Positions 25,466 through 40,766 of a stretch of DNA of 50,053 nt are shown one piece after another. How positions within the stretch are numbered: position 1 is the stretch's first letter; the number at the start of each line of letters is the position of its first letter. The stretch lies in assembly GCA_035063765.1 (NCBI GenBank), contig JAPSFT010000026.1, positions 1-50,053 of the forward strand, in the 5' to 3' direction. The position numbers and the translations under genes are program-made. The DNA is from Deltaproteobacteria bacterium (GTDB lineage: Bacteria; Myxococcota_A; UBA9160; PR03). Under the pieces are notes generated by a model. The model had not been told where the DNA came from and did no database searches. It worked only from the letters and a program-made list of their open reading frames with translations.

Positions 25466-27154
25466 CTACTCCTCGCTCTTGCGCCCGAGCTTCTCGGCCA
25501 GCAGGTCGCCCAGCGTCGAGCGCTGGCTCTTCGACTGCTGCGCCGCCTGCTCGGCCAGCGCCTGCCGGGTGTGCTGGTCGTGGATCGCCTTGATCGACAA
25601 GGAGATCTTCTGCTCGTTCGGGTCGACGCGGGTGACGATCGCCTTGACGCGGTCGCCCTCCTTCACGACGTCCGAGGGCTTCGCCACCGGCTCCGCCGCC
25701 AGCTCGCCGGTGTAGATCAGGCCCTCGATGCCCTCCGACAGGCGCACGAAGGCGCCGAAGTCGGCCACGCTCGCCACCTCGCCCTCGACCTCGGAGCCGA
25801 GGGGGTAGCGCCGCTGGATGTCGTCCCAGGGGTTCGCCTGGAGCTGCTTGATGCCGAGCGAGAACTTCTCGTTCTCCTTGTCGATCTTGAGAACGACCGC
25901 CTCGACCTCGTCGCCCTTCTTGAACTTCTCGCTCGGGTGCTTGATCTGCTCCGTCCACGAGACGTCCGAGACGTGCACGAGGCCGTCGATGCCCTCCTCG
26001 AGCCCGACGAAGACCCCGAAGTTGGTGATGTTTCGGACCGTCCCGCGCACGTGGGTGCCGACCGGGTACTTCTCCTCGATCAAGCTCCACGGGTTCGGCT
26101 CGATCTGCTTCATGCCGAGCGAGATCTTCCGGTTGCCCTCGTCGATGTCGAGCACGACGGCGTCCACGGCGTCGCCCACCGAGACCACCTTCGACGGGTG
26201 CTTGACCCGCTTCGTCCACGACATCTCCGACACGTGCACGAGGCCCTCGATGCCCGGCTCGAGCTCGAGGAACGCGCCGTAGTCGGTGAGCGACACGACC
26301 TTGCCCTGGATGCGCTTGCCGATCGGGTACTTGTGCGCGGCGTCCACCCACGGGTCGGGCTGGATCTGCTTCAGGCCGAGCGACACGCGCTCGGTCTCCG
26401 GGTCGAACTTGAGAACCTTGACCTTCAGCTGGTCGCCGACCTGGAAGATCTCGCTCGGGTGGTTGACCCGGCCCCACGACATGTCGGTCACGTGGAGCAG
26501 GCCGTCGATCCCGCCGAGGTCGATGAACGCGCCGTAGTCCGTGATGTTCTTGATCACGCCGTCGACGATCTGGCCGACCTCGAGGGTCTGCAGCGTCTCC
26601 CGGCGCTGGCGCTCGCGCTCCTTCTCGAGCAGCGCCCGGCGCGAGAGCACGATGTTGCCGCGCCGCTTGTTGAACTTGATGATCTTGAACTGGGTGCGCT
26701 CGCCCATCAGCGCCTCGAGGTTCCGCACCGGGCGCAGGTCCACCTGCGAGCCGGGCAGGAACGCCTTCACGCCGATGTCGACCGAGAGGCCGCCCTTCAC
26801 GCGCGCCACGATCACGCCGTCCACGGCCTCGTCGGCCTCGTAGGCGCGGCTGATCTCGTCCCAGATCTTGAGACGGTCCGCCTTCTCCTTGGAGAGCGCG
26901 ATACGCCCGTCGGCGTCCTCGGTCTCCTCGATCAACACGTCCACCCGGTCGCCCGGCTTCACGAGCACGCGGCCGTCGTCGGCCATCAGCTCCCAGAGCG
27001 GGATCAGGCCCTCGGACTTGAAGCCGACGTCGACGTGCACGTGCTCGTTGTCGATGCCGAGCACGGTGCCCTGGACGACCTCGCCCTCCTTGATGGTGCG
27101 GGCCGCCTTCTCGAACAGCTCCGCAAAGCTCTCGGTCGAATGCGAATCAGTCAT
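25466..27154 (-). CDS. rpsA: 30S ribosomal protein S1
   Basis: 562 residues, close to the E. coli 557. Six S1 domains repeat about every 87 residues from residue 20 on. The last four are the strongly RNA-binding type (GVIKNITDYGAFIDLGGIDG, GKVVSLTDYGAFLELEPGIE and so on), while the first two are the divergent ribosome-binding ones. S1 unfolds and recruits mRNAs, especially those with weak Shine-Dalgarno sites. The start MTDSHSTESFAELFEKA at ATG 27154 matches the family N-terminus; an upstream extension would run into low-quality sequence and tyrA. The nearest purine stretch (GGGAG) is about 15 bases away, so the site is weak, and a stem-loop lies at 27179-27198. Confidence 0.97.
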   Translation of the reverse strand: MTDSHSTESFAELFEKAARTIKEGEVVQGTVLGIDNEHVHVDVGFKSEGLIPLWELMADDGRVLVKPGDRVDVLIEETEDADGRIALSKEKADRLKIWDEISRAYEADEAVDGVIVARVKGGLSVDIGVKAFLPGSQVDLRPVRNLEALMGERTQFKIIKFNKRRGNIVLSRRALLEKERERQRRETLQTLEVGQIVDGVIKNITDYGAFIDLGGIDGLLHVTDMSWGRVNHPSEIFQVGDQLKVKVLKFDPETERVSLGLKQIQPDPWVDAAHKYPIGKRIQGKVVSLTDYGAFLELEPGIEGLVHVSEMSWTKRVKHPSKVVSVGDAVDAVVLDIDEGNRKISLGMKQIEPNPWSLIEEKYPVGTHVRGTVRNITNFGVFVGLEEGIDGLVHVSDVSWTEQIKHPSEKFKKGDEVEAVVLKIDKENEKFSLGIKQLQANPWDDIQRRYPLGSEVEGEVASVADFGAFVRLSEGIEGLIYTGELAAEPVAKPSDVVKEGDRVKAIVTRVDPNEQKISLSIKAIHDQHTRQALAEQAAQQSKSQRSTLGDLLAEKLGRKSEE

Positions 27155-27178
27155 GCGGTTGGTGTGAACTCCCTTCGG

Positions 27179-27198
27179 GGCCACGCCCCTGCGTGGCC
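27179..27198 (-). promoter_or_regulatory. Stem-loop in the rpsA leader with a purine AGGG loop
   Basis: On the minus strand GGCCACGC-AGGG-GCGTGGCC makes eight perfect pairs around a four-base AGGG loop, 24-43 bases before the rpsA ATG. No T-tract follows, so it is not an ordinary terminator. E. coli rpsA has leader hairpins with purine-rich loops that replace a normal Shine-Dalgarno and mediate S1 autoregulation; a similar role here is inference. Confidence 0.55.
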
Positions 27199-27243
27199 TG
27201 GATTTCCGGGTTTGCGCCCCCGGTTCGGGCGAGATGCCTGCCT

Positions 27244-28140
27244 CTATTCCTCGCGGCCGTCGTCGGCGAGCCGCGCGCGAGCCTCCGTGATCCATCGCTC
27301 GAGTGCGTCGGAGTCGCCCGCTTCGAGCCTTCGGGCGACCTCGGCGAGCTCGCGGGCCACCCGGGCCAGCGGGCCGCCCACCGCCTTCGCGTTGGCAACC
27401 AGGATGTCGGCCCACAACTCCGCGTCGCTCCGCGCGATGCGGGTGAAGTCTCGGAACCCGGGCCCGGCCACGGCACGCGCACCCGCCGGGGCTTCCCCGA
27501 GCGCCCGGGCGTACGCGAAGGCGAGAACATGGGGAAGGTGGCTCATCCATGCCACCTCGCGGTCGTGCCCGGCCGGGTCCCGGCGGACCACCCGGGCGCC
27601 GACCGCCCGCCACAGGGCCTCGATCCGCTCGACCGCCTCCGGGGCATCGCCCGGGACGGGGGTCACGACGCAGACGGCGCCCTCGAAGAGATCGGGCCGG
27701 GCGTGGTCGGGCCCCTTCTCGTGGCTCCCGGCCATGGGGTGCGAGCCGACGAAGCGGGCGGCGGGGGGAAGCAGCCCCGGGAGGGTGTCCGCGAGCAGCG
27801 CCTTCACGCTGCCGACGTCGGTGACGAGCACCCCCGGCGCGAGGGCCGGCGCCACCTGCGCGAGCAGGGGCGCCATCGCGCCCACCGGCGTCGCGAGCAC
27901 GACCAGGTCGGCGCCTGCCACGGCCGCGACCGGGTCGGCGGTGGTGCGGTCGACGAGGCCCCGCTCGCGGGCGCGGCGGAGCGGCTCCGCGCGCCGCCCG
28001 CAGCCCACCACCTCCGCCGCCAGCGCCCGCTCGCGCGCTGCCCAGGCCAGCGAGCCGCCGAGCAGCCCGAGGCCCAGGACGGCGATCCGCTCGAAGCGCA
28101 GCGGTGCGGGCGTCGCGTCTCCGGGCCGGCCGGCGCTCAT
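27244..28140 (-). CDS. tyrA: Prephenate dehydrogenase
   Basis: 298 residues. The N-terminal Rossmann motif is IAVLGLGLLGGSLAWAARE (residues about 18-36), followed by LVVLATPV and VTDVGSVKA, with the conserved SHPMAGSHEKGP segment (about 135) and the helical dimerisation domain with HDREVAWMSHLPHVLAFA. It converts prephenate to 4-hydroxyphenylpyruvate with NAD(P)+, or arogenate to tyrosine in some relatives; the preference cannot be read safely. There is no chorismate mutase or ACT domain in this chain. The ATG overlaps the hisC stop (ATGA), placing it third in the pheA-hisC-tyrA unit. Confidence 0.93.
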   Translation of the reverse strand: MSAGRPGDATPAPLRFERIAVLGLGLLGGSLAWAARERALAAEVVGCGRRAEPLRRARERGLVDRTTADPVAAVAGADLVVLATPVGAMAPLLAQVAPALAPGVLVTDVGSVKALLADTLPGLLPPAARFVGSHPMAGSHEKGPDHARPDLFEGAVCVVTPVPGDAPEAVERIEALWRAVGARVVRRDPAGHDREVAWMSHLPHVLAFAYARALGEAPAGARAVAGPGFRDFTRIARSDAELWADILVANAKAVGGPLARVARELAEVARRLEAGDSDALERWITEARARLADDGREE

Positions 28141-29234
28141 GCGCGCTCCTCCGCGATCCGGCGCAGCGCCTTCACGAGCCGCTCGTTCTCCTCGGGCAGC
28201 CCGATCGTGATGCGCACGTGGTCGGGCATCCCGAAGCCCGCGAGCGGCCGCACGATCACGCCCTCGCGCAGGAGGCGCTCGTAGGCGCCGGGGCCCGGCC
28301 GGGCCAGCAGGAAGTTGGCCTCGCTCGGCCAGACCTCGATGCCGAGCGCGCCGAGCTCCCGGCTCAGGAAGTCGAGGCCCTCGGCGTTGAGCTGCAGCGT
28401 ACGCTCGAGGTGCTCGCGGTCGTCGAGTGCCGCCACCGCCGCGGCCTCGGCGAGCAGGTTCACGTTGAAGGGGTGGCGCGCGCGCTCGAGGTACCCGGCC
28501 AGCTCGGGATCGGCCACGCCGAAGCCGACGCGCAGCCCGGCGAGCCCGACGCTCTTCGAGAAGGTGCGCACGACCAGGGTGCCGGGCCGCCGCCGCACCC
28601 AGGCGAGCGCGTCCGGGAAGTCGGGGCGGCGCGCGAAGTCGACGTAGGCCTCGTCGACGAGGAGCAGCACGTCGGCGGGCAGCGCGGCCGCGAAGCGGTC
28701 GAAGCCGGCGGCGCCGACACTCGTTCCGGTCGGGTTGTTCGGGTTGCACACCACGACGACGCGCGTGCGCGCGCCCACCGCGCTTGCGAGCGCAGCGAGG
28801 TCGTGGACGAGGTCCGCGTCGAGCGGCACCGCCACCGGCGTCGCGCCCATGCCCTTCGTCACGATCGGGTACATCGCGAAGGAGGGCCACGCGAACACGC
28901 ACTCGTCGCCCGGCCCGAGGAAGGCCTTCGCGACGAGCTCGAGGATCTCGTCGGCGCCACAGCCGAAGACGAGTTGCCCGGGCGCGACGTCGAGGCGTCG
29001 CGAGAGCTTCTCGCGCAGCCGGAAGCTCGCGCCGTCCGGGTAGCGGTGCAGCCCGCCGAGCGCCTCGCGGACCGCCGCGACGGCCTTCGGCGAGGGACCG
29101 AGCGGGTTCTCGTTGGAGGCGAGCTTCACGACGTCGCTCACGCCGAGCTCGCGCTCGAGCTCCTCGATGGGCTTGCCCGGGACGTAGGGCGCGAGGTCCC
29201 GGATCCACGGCTTCACGCGTTCCGCGAGACTCAC
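28137..29234 (-). CDS. hisC: HisC-type aminotransferase (histidinol-phosphate / aromatic)
   Basis: 365 residues of PLP fold-type I aminotransferase. Diagnostic pieces are KLASNENPLGPSPKAV near 37-52, CNPNNPTGTSVG near 160, LLLVDEAYVDFA near 190, and the Schiff-base lysine in RTFSKSVGLAGLRVGFG (Lys about 226). The family makes histidinol phosphate or transaminates aromatic keto acids. Lying between pheA and tyrA, this copy most likely supplies the last step of phenylalanine and tyrosine synthesis (HisH2-type). GTG start, overlapping the pheA stop (GTGA). Confidence 0.92.
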   Translation of the reverse strand: MSLAERVKPWIRDLAPYVPGKPIEELERELGVSDVVKLASNENPLGPSPKAVAAVREALGGLHRYPDGASFRLREKLSRRLDVAPGQLVFGCGADEILELVAKAFLGPGDECVFAWPSFAMYPIVTKGMGATPVAVPLDADLVHDLAALASAVGARTRVVVVCNPNNPTGTSVGAAGFDRFAAALPADVLLLVDEAYVDFARRPDFPDALAWVRRRPGTLVVRTFSKSVGLAGLRVGFGVADPELAGYLERARHPFNVNLLAEAAAVAALDDREHLERTLQLNAEGLDFLSRELGALGIEVWPSEANFLLARPGPGAYERLLREGVIVRPLAGFGMPDHVRITIGLPEENERLVKALRRIAEERA

Positions 29235-30391
29235 GGCGCGGCTCCCTCGCCGATGCCGGCGCGCGGGAAGGAGCCGAGCACGCGGTGCGAGTGCGCGTGG
29301 GCGGCTGCCTCCGCGAGCGCCGCCTCGACGGCCGCGTCCTCGCGGTGGCCTTCGAGGTCGAGGAAGAACAGGTACTCGAAGGGCTTGCCGGGCATCGGCC
29401 GCGACTGGATCGCGGTCAGGTTCACGCCGTGGCGGGCGAAGGGCTCGAGCAGCCGGTGCAGGGCGCCGGGCTGCGCCTTGCGCACGGTGAAGAGCACCGA
29501 GGTGAGGTCGGCGCCGCTGCGCGCGGGCGGCTTGCGCCCGAGCAGCAGGAAGCGCGTCGTGTTGTCGCGCCGGTCCTCGATCGCGCGCGCCGCGGGGAGC
29601 AGGCCGTAGGTCTCGCCGGCAACCGCGCTCGCCACCGCCGCGACGTCGCCGTCGCCGGCCGCGAGCCGCGCGGCCGCCGCGGTGCTCGAGGTCTCGACGC
29701 GTTCGGCCTCCGGGAGCTGGCGGTCGAGCCAGCTCCGGCACTGCGCGAGGCCCTGCGGATGCGACGCCACGCGCCGGACCTCCTCGAGCCGGCCGCTGCG
29801 CGAGAGGAGCTGATACGACACGCGCAGCAGCGCCTCGCCGCACAGCGCCACCTCCGCCGTCGCCAGCGTGTCGTAGGTCTCGGTGACGACGCCCTGGGTG
29901 GTGTTCTCGATCGGCGCGATCCCGTGGTCGGCGGCGCCCCGCTCGACGGCCGCGAAGATCTCGGCGATCGGGCTCACCGCGACCAGCTCGACCGACGCGC
30001 CGAAGGTCCGGCGCGCGGCCTCGTGGGCAAAGGTGCCGGCGGGGCCGAGGTAGGCGATCCGCAGCGGGCGTTCGAGCGCGCGCGTGGCCGAGATGATCTC
30101 GCGGAACACGGGCTCGATCGCGGCGTCCGGGAACGGGCCCGGGTTCGCGGCGCGCAGGGCCGCCACGAGATCGCGCTCGCGCGCCGCGGACAGGACCTCG
30201 GTCCCCAGGCGCGCCTTCACCCGCCCCACCTGCTCGCCGAGCGCGGCACGCTCGTTGAGCCGGGTCAGGATCTCGCGGTCCACCCGGTCGATCTCGGCAC
30301 GCAGGTGCCCGAGCTCGCCGGTGGCGGCGGCGGCGTCACCGGCCGGGCCGGCGCTCGGCGGCGGAGCCTGGGCTTCGGGGCTGCGAGTCAT
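29231..30391 (-). CDS. pheA: Bifunctional chorismate mutase / prephenate dehydratase
   Basis: 386 residues. A chorismate mutase AroQ helix domain (about 27-105, LRAEIDRVDREILTRLNERA) is followed by a prephenate dehydratase domain (about 108-285) with IAYLGPAGTFAHEAA, the PIENTTQGVVTETYD motif, and the catalytic Thr region DNTTRFLLLG. A C-terminal ACT domain (about 295-375, TSVLFTVRKAQPGALHRLLEPFARHGVNLTAIQSRP) contains the ESRP-like phenylalanine-binding stretch as QSRP. It makes phenylpyruvate and should be feedback-inhibited by phenylalanine. It is the first gene of the long minus-strand block, with a promoter at 30509-30537 and a leader of about 110 bases. Confidence 0.95.
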   Translation of the reverse strand: MTRSPEAQAPPPSAGPAGDAAAATGELGHLRAEIDRVDREILTRLNERAALGEQVGRVKARLGTEVLSAARERDLVAALRAANPGPFPDAAIEPVFREIISATRALERPLRIAYLGPAGTFAHEAARRTFGASVELVAVSPIAEIFAAVERGAADHGIAPIENTTQGVVTETYDTLATAEVALCGEALLRVSYQLLSRSGRLEEVRRVASHPQGLAQCRSWLDRQLPEAERVETSSTAAAARLAAGDGDVAAVASAVAGETYGLLPAARAIEDRRDNTTRFLLLGRKPPARSGADLTSVLFTVRKAQPGALHRLLEPFARHGVNLTAIQSRPMPGKPFEYLFFLDLEGHREDAAVEAALAEAAAHAHSHRVLGSFPRAGIGEGAAP

Positions 30392-37228: not shown

Positions 37229-37258
37229 CTGCCGGGCGCGTGGCTACGCGCCCGGCAG
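37229..37258. terminator. 13-bp perfect hairpin between convergent genes
   Basis: CTGCCGGGCGCGT, loop GGCT, ACGCGCCCGGCAG: thirteen uninterrupted pairs. It begins six bases after the DUF1254 stop and contains the last codons and the stop of the minus-strand deaminase gene (CTA at 37244-37246 spans loop and stem). No T-tract on either side. By position and strength it is a likely bidirectional transcription barrier. Confidence 0.65.
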
Positions 37259-38251
37259 CGCCGCCTGGCGCACCGTCACGCCGGCCTCGGCGAGCAGCGC
37301 CTCGGCGCGGGCGTCGAGGTGGTAGCTCGCGTTGTAGACCACCTCGGCGAGGCCCGCGTTGATGACGAGCTTCGTGCAGAGCAGGCACGGGAAGAAGGTG
37401 GTGTAGAGCGAGCCGCCCCGGACCGACACACCGTGGTAGGCGGCCTGGATGATCGCGTTCTCCTCGCCGTGCGAGCACAGGCACTCGTCGAGCCGGCTGC
37501 CGGACTCGGCGAGGGAGTTGCAGCGCGGGCAGCCGCCCTCGTTGCAGTTGCGCACCCCGCGCGGGGTGCCGTTGTAGCCGGTGGAGACGATCCGGCGGTC
37601 GCGGGCGATGACCGCGCCGACGTGGCGCTTCACGCAGTTGCTGCGCGAGGCCACCACCTGCGCGATCGAGAGGAAGTAGGCGTCCCAGCTCGGGCGCTCG
37701 AATCCGAGCGACGCGGCCAGCACCTCCTGCACCCGGGCGTGGAGGGCCTCGAGCGTGCCGTCGTTGCGCAGCCGCAGGTCCGCCAGGCGCTCGACGGCGT
37801 CGAGCTGCTGCATGGCGGGGTCGGCGCTGCCGCGCTCGCGTCCCTCGAGGACGAGCAGGCGCTCGAGCGTCTCGGGGTCGCCCGGGCGGGCGCGGGCGCG
37901 CAGGCGCTCGAAGCGGCGCGCCGGCTCGGCGTCCACCCAGAGCAGCCGGAAGCGCGCGCCGAGCCCGCGCAGCGCCTCCACCTCGGCGGGATGGCGGATC
38001 GAGTCGATCACGTAGTGGCGGTCGGGCTGGAGCTTCGCGCGCAGGCGCTCGGCCAGGACCGCGGGCCCGTGCGCCGCGCGCAGCGCACGCCCGGCCTCGA
38101 TCATCGCCTCGCGCGTCTCGGCGACGGCGCGCGCGCGCAGCTCGTCGCGCAGCACGTCCGAGAGCGAGAGCGGCGTGAAGCTGCGCTTCTCGAGCCAGGC
38201 CACCACCTCGCCCTTGCCAGCCCCGTTGGGCCCCGCGACTCCGAGGATCAA
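37244..38251 (-). CDS. P-loop kinase-like / deoxycytidylate deaminase fusion
   Basis: 335 residues from TTG 38251, supported by a GGGGGGAGG seven bases upstream and by the TTGA overlap with the HAD stop. Residues 1-175 form a P-loop NTPase resembling nucleotide or dephospho-CoA kinases, with Walker A GPNGAGKGE (7-15), YVIDSIRHPAEVEAL (80-94) and RLLWVDAEPARRFERL. Residues 187-330 are a dCMP-deaminase domain: SWDAYFLSIAQVVASRSNC, TGYNGTPRG, zinc-site His261 with catalytic Glu263 (SHGEENA), and Cys289/Cys292 in FFPCLLC. A second Cys cluster (236, 241, 244, 257, 259) matches the structural zinc site of eukaryotic-type dCMP deaminases. It would convert dCMP or dCTP to the uracil form. The architecture parallels fungal Dcd1 and anti-phage AvcD/DCD proteins. 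HGE instead of the usual HAE is a small oddity. Confidence 0.9.
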   Translation of the reverse strand: MILGVAGPNGAGKGEVVAWLEKRSFTPLSLSDVLRDELRARAVAETREAMIEAGRALRAAHGPAVLAERLRAKLQPDRHYVIDSIRHPAEVEALRGLGARFRLLWVDAEPARRFERLRARARPGDPETLERLLVLEGRERGSADPAMQQLDAVERLADLRLRNDGTLEALHARVQEVLAASLGFERPSWDAYFLSIAQVVASRSNCVKRHVGAVIARDRRIVSTGYNGTPRGVRNCNEGGCPRCNSLAESGSRLDECLCSHGEENAIIQAAYHGVSVRGGSLYTTFFPCLLCTKLVINAGLAEVVYNASYHLDARAEALLAEAGVTVRQAALPGA

Positions 38252-38952
38252 AGGCGCGCCTCCCCCCGCCCGAGCCCGAGCCGCTCGCCCAGCTCGCGAA
38301 GCCCTGCGATCCGCTCGCAATCCCGATCGGCGTAGCCCCCGGTCACGTCCACCAGGATCGGCCGCAAGCCCGCCGCGCGCGAGCCCTCGACGTCGATCGA
38401 CCAGATGTCGCCCACGAACACCGCCTGCGCCGGGCCGACCCCGAGCCGCACGAGGGCGCGCCGGAAGATCTCGGGATCCGGCTTCTCGACCCCCTCGAGG
38501 TGGGAGTCCAGGATCACGTCGAAGGAGGCCGCGAGGCCCGCCTGCTCGAGGAGCAGCCGGGCCCGGCCGTCGGCGTTCGAGACGACACCCGTCCGCAGCC
38601 CGGCCCCGCGCAGGGCCGCGAGCGTCTCGTGCGCGCCCTCGCAGGGGACCCGCCAGAGCCCCGCCTCGCGGTTGTCCGCCCGCAGCCGGCCCACGAGCGG
38701 CGGCCGCACCGCCTCCGGCACGCCGGCCGCTGCCAGCAGGTCGTCGAAGTAGTCGGGCACGCGCGTGGCGTCGGTGCCGGGCACCGCGCCGTGGCGGGCC
38801 GCGCGCGCGTCGATCGCGCGGCGCGCGTGGGCCTCGGCGCGCGCCAGCGCCTCGTCGTCGAGCGCGAAGCCGAGCTCGCCGGCGCGGCGAGCGATCGCCG
38901 CATAGTCGAGTCGCAGGAGCACGCCCCCTGCGTCGAAGAGCACGGCGGTCAC
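38248..38952 (-). CDS. HAD-superfamily hydrolase (subfamily IA-like)
   Basis: 234 residues from GTG 38952; TTG 38967 (five residues longer) is equally possible. Motif I is FDAGGVLL with nucleophile Asp7. The usual second Asp is Gly9, as in DxG-type HADs, which weakens a phosphatase call because that Asp is the general acid. Motif II is GVVSNADGRA, motif III the Lys in EGVEKPDPEIFRRAL, and motif IV GDIWSIDVEGSRAAGL. A helical cap lies between motif I and II. The stop overlaps the start of the dCMP-deaminase fusion (TTGA), so the two are co-expressed; a nucleotide-related substrate is inferred only from that. Divergent from the reductase gene at 39017. Confidence 0.85.
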   Translation of the reverse strand: MTAVLFDAGGVLLRLDYAAIARRAGELGFALDDEALARAEAHARRAIDARAARHGAVPGTDATRVPDYFDDLLAAAGVPEAVRPPLVGRLRADNREAGLWRVPCEGAHETLAALRGAGLRTGVVSNADGRARLLLEQAGLAASFDVILDSHLEGVEKPDPEIFRRALVRLGVGPAQAVFVGDIWSIDVEGSRAAGLRPILVDVTGGYADRDCERIAGLRELGERLGLGRGEARL

Positions 38953-39016
38953 GGGCGGCGCGGACAAGACGTCCGGCGTGTAGCACAGCGCCGCGGGCTC
39001 TGGCAGCTTGCCCCGC

Positions 39017-39910
39017 GTGCGGATCTGGGTGAGCGGCGCGTGCGGCTTCGTCGGCTCCTGGCTCGTGCCCCGCCTGGAGGCCGCCGGCCACGCCGTGCGG
39101 GGCGTCGACCGCGAGGTCGACGTCCGGGATCCCGCGGCCGTCACGGACTCGATCGCCACGGCGCGCCCCGACGCGATCGTGCACCTCGCGGCGCTGGCGT
39201 CGGTGACGGCGTCGCTCGCGGACCCGGCGGCGGCGGCGCGGGTCAACGCGCTCGGCACGCTGCACGTGCTGCGGGCTGCCGCGCAGCGGGCGCCGGCCGC
39301 GCGCGTGCTCGTGGTCAGCTCGGGCGAGATCTACGGCGGGGGCGGCGGTGCCCCCTTCGACGAAGCCTCGCCGCTGCTCCCGGCCACGCCCTACGCGCGC
39401 GCCAAGGCGGTGGCCGACCGGCTCGGCGCCGCGTTCGCGGCGCGCGGCCTCGACGTCGTGCGGGCGCGCCCCTTCAACCACACGGGGCCGGGCCAGGCCG
39501 ACGTCTTCGTCGCGTCGAGCTTCGCGCGCCAGCTCGCCGAGATCGAGGCCGGGCGGCGCGCGCCGCGGCTCGCGGTCGGCAACCTCGCCTCGCTGCGCGA
39601 CTTCCTCGACGTGGCCGACGTGGTCGAGGCCTACCGGCTCCTGCTCGACCGCCGGGTGCCGGCGGGCGCGTACAACGTGGCGAGCGGCGTGGCCCTCCCG
39701 ATCGGCGAGCTCCTGCGCCGGCTCCTCGCGGCCTGCCGCGCCGCGCCCGAGGTGCGCGAGGACCCGGCGCGCTGGCGGCCCACCAACGCGGCGGTGGGCG
39801 ACGCGGGGCGCCTGCGCCGCGCCACCGGCTGGGCCCCGCGCATCCCGCTCGACGACACGCTCGCGCGCCTGCTCGACGACTGGCGCGCGCGGGTCAGCGC
39901 GTCGCCGTGA
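39017..39910 (+). CDS. NAD-dependent epimerase/dehydratase, GDP-6-deoxy-mannose reductase-like
   Basis: 297 residues from GTG 39017, giving the typical MRIWVSGACGFVGSWL start; TTG 39008 would add three residues. This is an extended SDR: the glycine motif GACGFVG (7-13), DAIVHLAAL near 52-60, and the catalytic triad Ser102, Tyr126 and Lys130 (SSGEIYG, PYARAK). The substrate-loop motif RPFNHTGPGQ is shared with GDP-mannose 4,6-dehydratase and Rmd. It probably makes a deoxyhexose nucleotide such as GDP-rhamnose for surface polysaccharide. The 3' end overlaps the convergent prmA by 17 bases. Confidence 0.86.
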   Translation: MRIWVSGACGFVGSWLVPRLEAAGHAVRGVDREVDVRDPAAVTDSIATARPDAIVHLAALASVTASLADPAAAARVNALGTLHVLRAAAQRAPAARVLVVSSGEIYGGGGGAPFDEASPLLPATPYARAKAVADRLGAAFAARGLDVVRARPFNHTGPGQADVFVASSFARQLAEIEAGRRAPRLAVGNLASLRDFLDVADVVEAYRLLLDRRVPAGAYNVASGVALPIGELLRRLLAACRAAPEVREDPARWRPTNAAVGDAGRLRRATGWAPRIPLDDTLARLLDDWRARVSASP

Positions 39911-40766
39911 GCGCGAGCCAGGCGTCACCGCCGGCGTCCTCGCGCACGCGCGCGGCGCCGACCCGCGCGCCCCGCGCGGCGAGCGACGCCTCGATCGGCG
40001 CGCGCTCGCCGGCGAGCAGGCCCGAGAGCACGAGCGCGCCGCCGGCCGCGGTGCGCGCGACGAGCCCGGCGAGCAGCGGCTCGAGCTCGCGGCGGATCAG
40101 GTTCGCGGCCACCAGCTCGAAGCGCGCGGGCGCCAGCGCGTCGAGCGAGCCCGCGAAGGCCGCGAGCGGCGCGAGCGCGTTGCGCGCCGCGTTCTCGCGG
40201 GTCTCGCGCGCGGCGATCGGGTCGAGGTCGCAGGCCACCGCGCGCGCCGCGCCGAGGGCGAGCGCGGCGAGCGCCAGCACCCCGCTCCCGCAGCCGACGT
40301 CGAGGACGCGCGCGCCCCGGCGCTCCGCGAGCGCCTCGTCGAGCGCCTCGAGCGCGAGCGCGGTGGTCGCGTGCGCGCCGGTGCCGAAGGCCTGGCGCGG
40401 CTCGATCACCACCTCGCGCTGGCCGGGCGCGAGCGGGTGCGGCGCGAAGGGCGGCCGCACGACGAGCCGCTCCGACACCACGAGCGGACGGAGGCCCTGC
40501 TTCCAGGTCTCGGGCCAGTCCGCTGCCGGCTCGGGCTCGACCCCCCCGACCGCGCCGGCTCCGAGCGCCGCGACGAGCGCCGCGCGCACGGCCCCGGCGC
40601 GCGCGGCCGGCGCCCACACGAGGAGCGTGCCGTCGTCGCGCTCCTCGATGCCGGCCGCGCCCGCCTCCCAGGCCTCCGCCGCCGCGAGCTCCGCGCGCGC
40701 GCCGGCCGCGCGCGCGCGGATGCGTGCGAAGGCGGGGGCGCTGGCGGCACTCGGGCTCGCGATCAC
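39894..40766 (-). CDS. prmA: Ribosomal protein L11 methyltransferase (PrmA-like)
   Basis: 290 residues from GTG 40766. The PrmA hallmark IEPRQAFGTGAHATTALALEAL (about 121-142) precedes a class I SAM-binding motif VLDVGCGSGVLALAALALGA and the substrate-site VAANLIRRELEPLL. The N-terminal domain, which in Thermus positions the enzyme on L11, is short and Ala-rich (ARIRARAAGARAELAAAEAWEAGAAGIEE). The start is uncertain: no other plausible start codon lies downstream, and GTG 40766 overlaps the start of the divergent aminopeptidase gene by 47 bases, with GGGGAGG seven bases upstream. It would trimethylate L11 in the cytoplasm. Confidence 0.88.
   Translation of the reverse strand: MIASPSAASAPAFARIRARAAGARAELAAAEAWEAGAAGIEERDDGTLLVWAPAARAGAVRAALVAALGAGAVGGVEPEPAADWPETWKQGLRPLVVSERLVVRPPFAPHPLAPGQREVVIEPRQAFGTGAHATTALALEALDEALAERRGARVLDVGCGSGVLALAALALGAARAVACDLDPIAARETRENAARNALAPLAAFAGSLDALAPARFELVAANLIRRELEPLLAGLVARTAAGGALVLSGLLAGERAPIEASLAARGARVGAARVREDAGGDAWLALTATR

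Follow-up and report, generated by a model that had tools for sequence, protein, structure and literature searches.

The DNA analysed here, referred to as the window, is a single stretch of 50,053 nucleotides. An earlier, sequence-only reading had picked out a 335-residue frame at 37244-38251; the frame is real and lies on the minus strand, with a TTG start at 38251 and a stop codon at 37244-37246, and a plus-strand frame over the same interval was rejected as spurious. The product, called the fusion below, joins an N-terminal P-loop domain resembling NMP kinases to a C-terminal dCMP deaminase domain (Table 1). Pfam profiles AAA_33 and AAA_17 scored above their cut-offs over residues 6-131, and dCMP_cyt_deam_1 matched residues 188-306 (E=1.4e-20). 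Throughout, "the class" is the Myxococcota class that includes UBA9160 (91 genomes), and "the order" comprises 80 genomes. Since Pfam matches were obtained and homologues were found in 72 of the 80 genomes of the order, the frame is not a chance one. The stop codon of the HAD-superfamily hydrolase gene overlaps the start codon of the fusion gene, and translational coupling of the two is therefore probable; the hydrolase is kept beside the fusion mainly within the family of the source organism.

Table 1. Features of the fusion gene and its surroundings (positions in the window; residues of the fusion protein).
Feature	Position	Strand	Residues	Remark
Fusion gene, P-loop NMP-kinase-like domain plus dCMP deaminase	37244-38251	-	335 aa	TTG start at 38251
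P-loop kinase-like domain	37710-38251	-	~1-180	UPF0200/AdkA-related fold
dCMP deaminase domain	37247-37696	-	~186-335	
Walker A, GPNGAGKGE	38207-38233	-	7-15	
SLSDxxR			29-35	P-loop domain
DSIRHPAE			83-90	P-loop domain
LID-type Arg			113, 116, 120, 122	P-loop domain
TGYNG, allosteric-type motif			224-228	deaminase domain
Extra Cys cluster			236, 241, 244, 257, 259	deaminase domain
HxE			H261, E263	deaminase domain
PCxxC			C289, C292	deaminase domain
HAD-superfamily hydrolase	38248-39021	-		upstream of fusion; TGA stop overlaps fusion TTG
NAD-dependent epimerase	39008-39910	+		stays beside the P-loop gene, fused or standalone, throughout the class; indicates that the loci are orthologous
PrmA-like methyltransferase (named from sequence, not profile-checked)	39894-40766	-		second conserved syntenic neighbour, fused and standalone
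rpsA (ribosomal protein S1)	25466-27154	-		directly downstream of tyrA

The residues named in the earlier reading, namely the Walker A motif, the DSIRHPAEVEAL block at residues 83-94, His261, Glu263, Cys289, Cys292 and the extra cysteine cluster, are all present as it described them. Structural comparisons were made with an alignment-based AlphaFold2 model of the full fusion (pLDDT 87), which was used instead of a fold of the P-loop domain from a single sequence (pLDDT 51). This structure prediction, which had been proposed as a check, places the P-loop half in the NMP-kinase fold and the deaminase half in the CDA fold. In the model, the closest relative of the deaminase half is the S. mutans dCMP deaminase 2hvw (Z 20.6, rmsd 2.5 over 140). 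H261, E263, C289 and C292 were invariant in 37 fusions, and the HxE motif, the PCxxC motif and the CDA fold are those of a dCMP deaminase. The protein falls outside the ComEB family (TIGR02571), scoring 109.2 bits against a curated cut-off of 219.45. The two-domain layout, intact P-loop and dCMP-deaminase identity put forward from the sequence are thus upheld, with Pfam matches, residues and model folds in agreement.

Among solved folds, the nearest to the modelled P-loop half is SSO1041 (UPF0200) with AMP bound (Z 22.8; 167 residues at rmsd 1.8), followed by adenylate kinases and UMP/CMP kinase (Z ~15). A profile search gave a concordant picture. The deoxynucleoside monophosphate kinases of PHROG 139 matched residues 1-181 (E=1.2e-9). 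Aligned with adenylate kinase, the SLSDxxR and DSxR blocks of the P-loop half correspond to its STGDxLR and DGxPR blocks. Kinase residues G7, G12, K13, SLSD29-32, R35, R86, E90, R116 and R120 were invariant in 55 fusions and in nine standalone P-loop proteins of the class, and the same set was nearly invariant in 24 standalone proteins of Acidobacteriota; S84, P88, R113 and R122 were nearly invariant across the fusions and standalone proteins examined. Two apparent standalone P-loops, L035 and L115, are contig-end or fragment artefacts and were left out of these counts (L035 also of the P-loop tree). The P-loop half belongs to no characterised CMP-kinase family, and it has the P-loop, the NMP-binding Arg, the DxxR motif, the LID Arg and the fold of an NMP kinase. 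Judged by its sequence, it is a working kinase, more than a relic.

Most of the homologues in the order are full length, with 59-81% identity, and the P-loop half was found in 79 of the 91 genomes of the class. Full-length fusions with 52-60% identity are also present in Acidobacteriota, Nitrospinota, Nitrospirota, Omnitrophota and DPANN archaea, and at least 587 relatives of the fusion were confirmed. Among 72,556 plasmid records (59 matching) and 50,697 phage records (2,554 matching), none covered 80% of the fusion, and the matches listed correspond to its deaminase half. The fusion is a chromosomal core gene, vertically inherited and syntenic across the class, so the metabolic rather than defensive setting favoured by the sequence-only reading holds. 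The DPANN archaea with a full fusion are represented by loci L138, L141, L151, L153, L155, L156, L160, L161, L165 and L166. In the P-loop tree most DPANN fusions group with Nitrospinota and Nitrospirota copies, which suggests that the fusion has moved between archaea and bacteria.

To our knowledge, the cytidylate kinase Cmk (PF02224) has been treated as near-universal in bacteria; E. coli K-12 deleted for cmk is cold-sensitive and has little dCTP. A PF02224 match over the cut-off was obtained in only one of the 91 genomes of the class (G056); in a control, the profile found Cmk in 14 of 14 genomes, 13 of them over the cut-off. No PF02224 match was found in the window's own genome, the fusion itself not qualifying as a Cmk. 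In E. coli, cmk adjoins rpsA; in the window this slot is empty, with no cmk between tyrA and rpsA. The rpsA gene closes a minus-strand run of pheA, a hisC-type aminotransferase gene, tyrA and rpsA (25466-30391), and the tyrA-rpsA junction was also seen in L053, from genome G011. The Cmk of G056, an assembly with 9% contamination, adjoins an rpsA that is only 47% identical to that of the window, while the rpsA of G011, from the same genus, is 93% identical; for this reason the G056 Cmk is taken as foreign and is probably contamination.

Acidobacteriota and Myxococcota were searched with a query joining the fusion to Cmk; among the matches listed, and apart from G056, an intact P-loop and Cmk were mutually exclusive. 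In Acidobacteriota (149 genomes), the matches listed comprised 19 genomes with the fusion, 30 with the P-loop alone and 88 with Cmk, 12 genomes being unclassified; one genome entered as having a fusion (G340) carries an adjacent gene pair. Among these matches, none of the 49 P-loop genomes had Cmk and none of the 88 Cmk genomes had the P-loop (Fisher p=3e-28, relatedness ignored). In Myxococcota (220 genomes), again among the matches listed, the class and families f20 and f37 have the P-loop without Cmk, G056 excepted, and the other families contribute over 90 genomes that have Cmk without an intact P-loop. Among 31 fusion genomes outside the class, none of the bacterial ones (about 21) had Cmk, and three DPANN archaea carried the fusion plus weak Cmk-type matches. 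About 12 of the 91 class genomes lacked both the P-loop and Cmk; most of these are incomplete assemblies. One of 98% completeness, G040, yielded no match to Cmk, the P-loop domain or PF13189, and is a possible true exception. The P-loop half thus occurs almost exactly where Cmk has been lost, and it therefore probably does the job of that essential enzyme.

About nine members of the class have lost the deaminase half but keep the kinase half, as a 180-aa gene that retains every kinase residue. Most of these genes lie at the syntenic locus of the fusion, beside the same epimerase, and they nest with the class fusions in the P-loop tree; most of the genomes concerned encode other dCMP deaminases elsewhere. 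Survival of the kinase half with its residues intact after loss of the deaminase argues that it has a function of its own. In several Acidobacteriota a standalone kinase gene overlaps or abuts, in an operon-like manner, the gene of a dCMP deaminase of another subfamily, which has GYVG and is without the GGCPRC insert. The pairs are found at L205, L208, L211, L212, L216, L221, L227, L232 and L233 (GYVG where read), in the last of which the gene order is reversed. Since the kinase lies beside a second deaminase subfamily, its partnership with dCMP deamination has originated, or been maintained, in more than one way. No rpsA was found near the standalone Acidobacteriota P-loops within the stretches read. 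Degenerate copies also exist. Genome G195 (Myxococcota) has Cmk and a fusion-type deaminase whose P-loop half is without Walker A, SLSDxxR and DSIR; the kinase site has decayed where Cmk is available. The P-loop half of G217 is similarly degenerate, Cmk being absent among the matches listed. An IMG/VR contig (L167, positions 453-1310) encodes a fusion-type dCMP deaminase with a degenerate N-terminal P-loop; the contig may come from a virus, or from a chromosome and have been misfiled.

We consider it likely that the fusion is a housekeeping bifunctional (d)CMP kinase-dCMP deaminase and that its kinase domain displaced Cmk. From the fold, the conserved residues and the exclusivity with Cmk, the P-loop half is most likely an active kinase with (d)CMP as its substrate. 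An alternative that we regard as unlikely is that it phosphorylates another substrate (dUMP, an AMP-like nucleotide, or dNMPs generally, as T4 gp1 does), Cmk having been lost for an unrelated reason or replaced otherwise. Such a specificity would suit the AMP bound in the closest structure and the match to phage dNMP kinases; yet it is Cmk in particular that is missing alongside the P-loop, a pattern found again in separate phyla. The presence of tmk in 75 of the 80 genomes of the order also speaks against it, and the P-loop half was rejected as a tmk replacement on the same count; dUTPase-family genes were found in 77 of the 80. Other sources of CMP kinase activity were considered. Of 17 genomes examined, 15 have a single ADK-family gene, one has three and one has none; a UMP-CMP kinase paralogue is thus generally missing, and a hidden CMP kinase of this kind was rejected. 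Two Cytidylate_kin2 (PF13189) genes are present in the window's genome (G000:C5:222988-223497, L194, and G000:C1:90954-91460) and could supply CMP kinase in that organism, which would favour a different substrate for the P-loop half. However, PF13189 is patchy, scoring over the cut-off in only seven of 26 genomes of the P-loop lineage (the window's genome and six others), with most of the rest lacking it; it cannot explain the loss of Cmk generally and was rejected as a general substitute.

P-loop domains of the Dcd1 and AvcD type are often supposed to be regulatory nucleotide sensors. That the P-loop half serves only as an ATP/dNTP-sensing regulator of the deaminase is nevertheless quite improbable. 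Its fusion to, and operon-like association with, dCMP deaminases would fit such a role, as would the persistence of the degenerate P-loops in G195, G217 and the viral-collection contig; however, the domain is kept alone where the deaminase is an unlinked and different protein, its NMP-binding and LID residues are invariant beyond the Walker A motif, and regulation leaves the exclusivity with Cmk unexplained. Of the regulated nucleotide-pool enzyme envisaged at the outset, the metabolic role is retained, and the P-loop seems to be more than a regulatory domain, namely a catalytic NMP kinase that replaces Cmk. The other possibility raised from the sequence, an AvcD/DCD-type anti-phage dCTP/dCMP deaminase that depletes dCTP on infection, is hardly credible: the P-loop is homologous and the PADLOC dCTPase profile scored 177 bits, but the NF041025 score of 129 bits is far below the cut-off of 400, the gene is core and syntenic, and the plasmid and phage collections contain no fusion.

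If the fusion is a bifunctional (d)CMP kinase-dCMP deaminase, its N-terminal kinase would convert CMP, released by RNA and phospholipid turnover, to CDP, and would direct dCMP towards dCDP and dCTP. By homology, the C-terminal zinc domain, with its GYNG-type allosteric motif, would deaminate dCMP to dUMP and so feed thymidylate synthesis. dCMP would then stand at a branch point between the kinase, leading to dCDP/dCTP, and the deaminase, leading to dUMP/dTTP, and the two activities together could balance dCTP against dTTP; coupling between the halves is conjecture. On balance we favour a broader picture, in which several bacterial phyla, and perhaps some archaea, have exchanged Cmk for a kinase domain from a different family, joined to a dCMP deaminase or sharing an operon with one, so that one enzyme would both consume and divert dCMP at the dCTP/dTTP branch, AvcD-type proteins and fungal Dcd1 being relatives with altered or decayed kinase sites. 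No paper proposing that a P-loop/deaminase protein replaces Cmk was found in the open literature searched. If true, the proposal would fill a gap in the metabolic models of entire lineages and assign a role to the uncharacterised UPF0200-like/PRK08356 kinase family. It would also account for the presence of a P-loop domain in Dcd1- and AvcD-type deaminases, and provide a test case for dCTP/dTTP balance with both branch-point activities in one polypeptide.

Several known systems resemble the fusion in part. Its P-loop-plus-deaminase architecture is homologous to that of AvcD/DCD proteins (NF041025, PADLOC dCTPase). The kinship with AvcD that had been noticed earlier is real but distant, the P-loop half by itself matching NF041025; unlike AvcD/DCD, the fusion is core and syntenic, the collections searched showed it on no mobile element, and it has no accessory, mobile or defence-island location. 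A Roseibium match was rejected as an AvcD reference, being only a 158-aa deaminase. Fungal Dcd1 has the same domain order as the fusion and similar deaminase motifs; in yeast its Walker A motif is degenerate, whereas the kinase site of the fusion is intact, and fungi have the UMP/CMP kinase Ura6, whereas the window's genome is without Cmk. The job proposed for the kinase half, CMP/dCMP to CDP/dCDP, is that of Cmk, a protein of a different family found in a mutually exclusive set of genomes. SSO1041 (PDB 3lw7, 3h0k) is 26-27% identical to the P-loop half and has the DxxR and Arg motifs in common with it, but is a standalone, uncharacterised archaeal protein. The T4-type deoxynucleoside monophosphate kinase of PHROG 139 matches the P-loop half over its whole length and is a phage enzyme without a deaminase fused to it. 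Finally, the zinc motifs, fold and GYNG motif are common to the fusion and to the ComEB, T4 and human dCMP deaminases; these have no kinase domain, and the fusion adds to their common plan a conserved NCNEGGCPRC cysteine insert.
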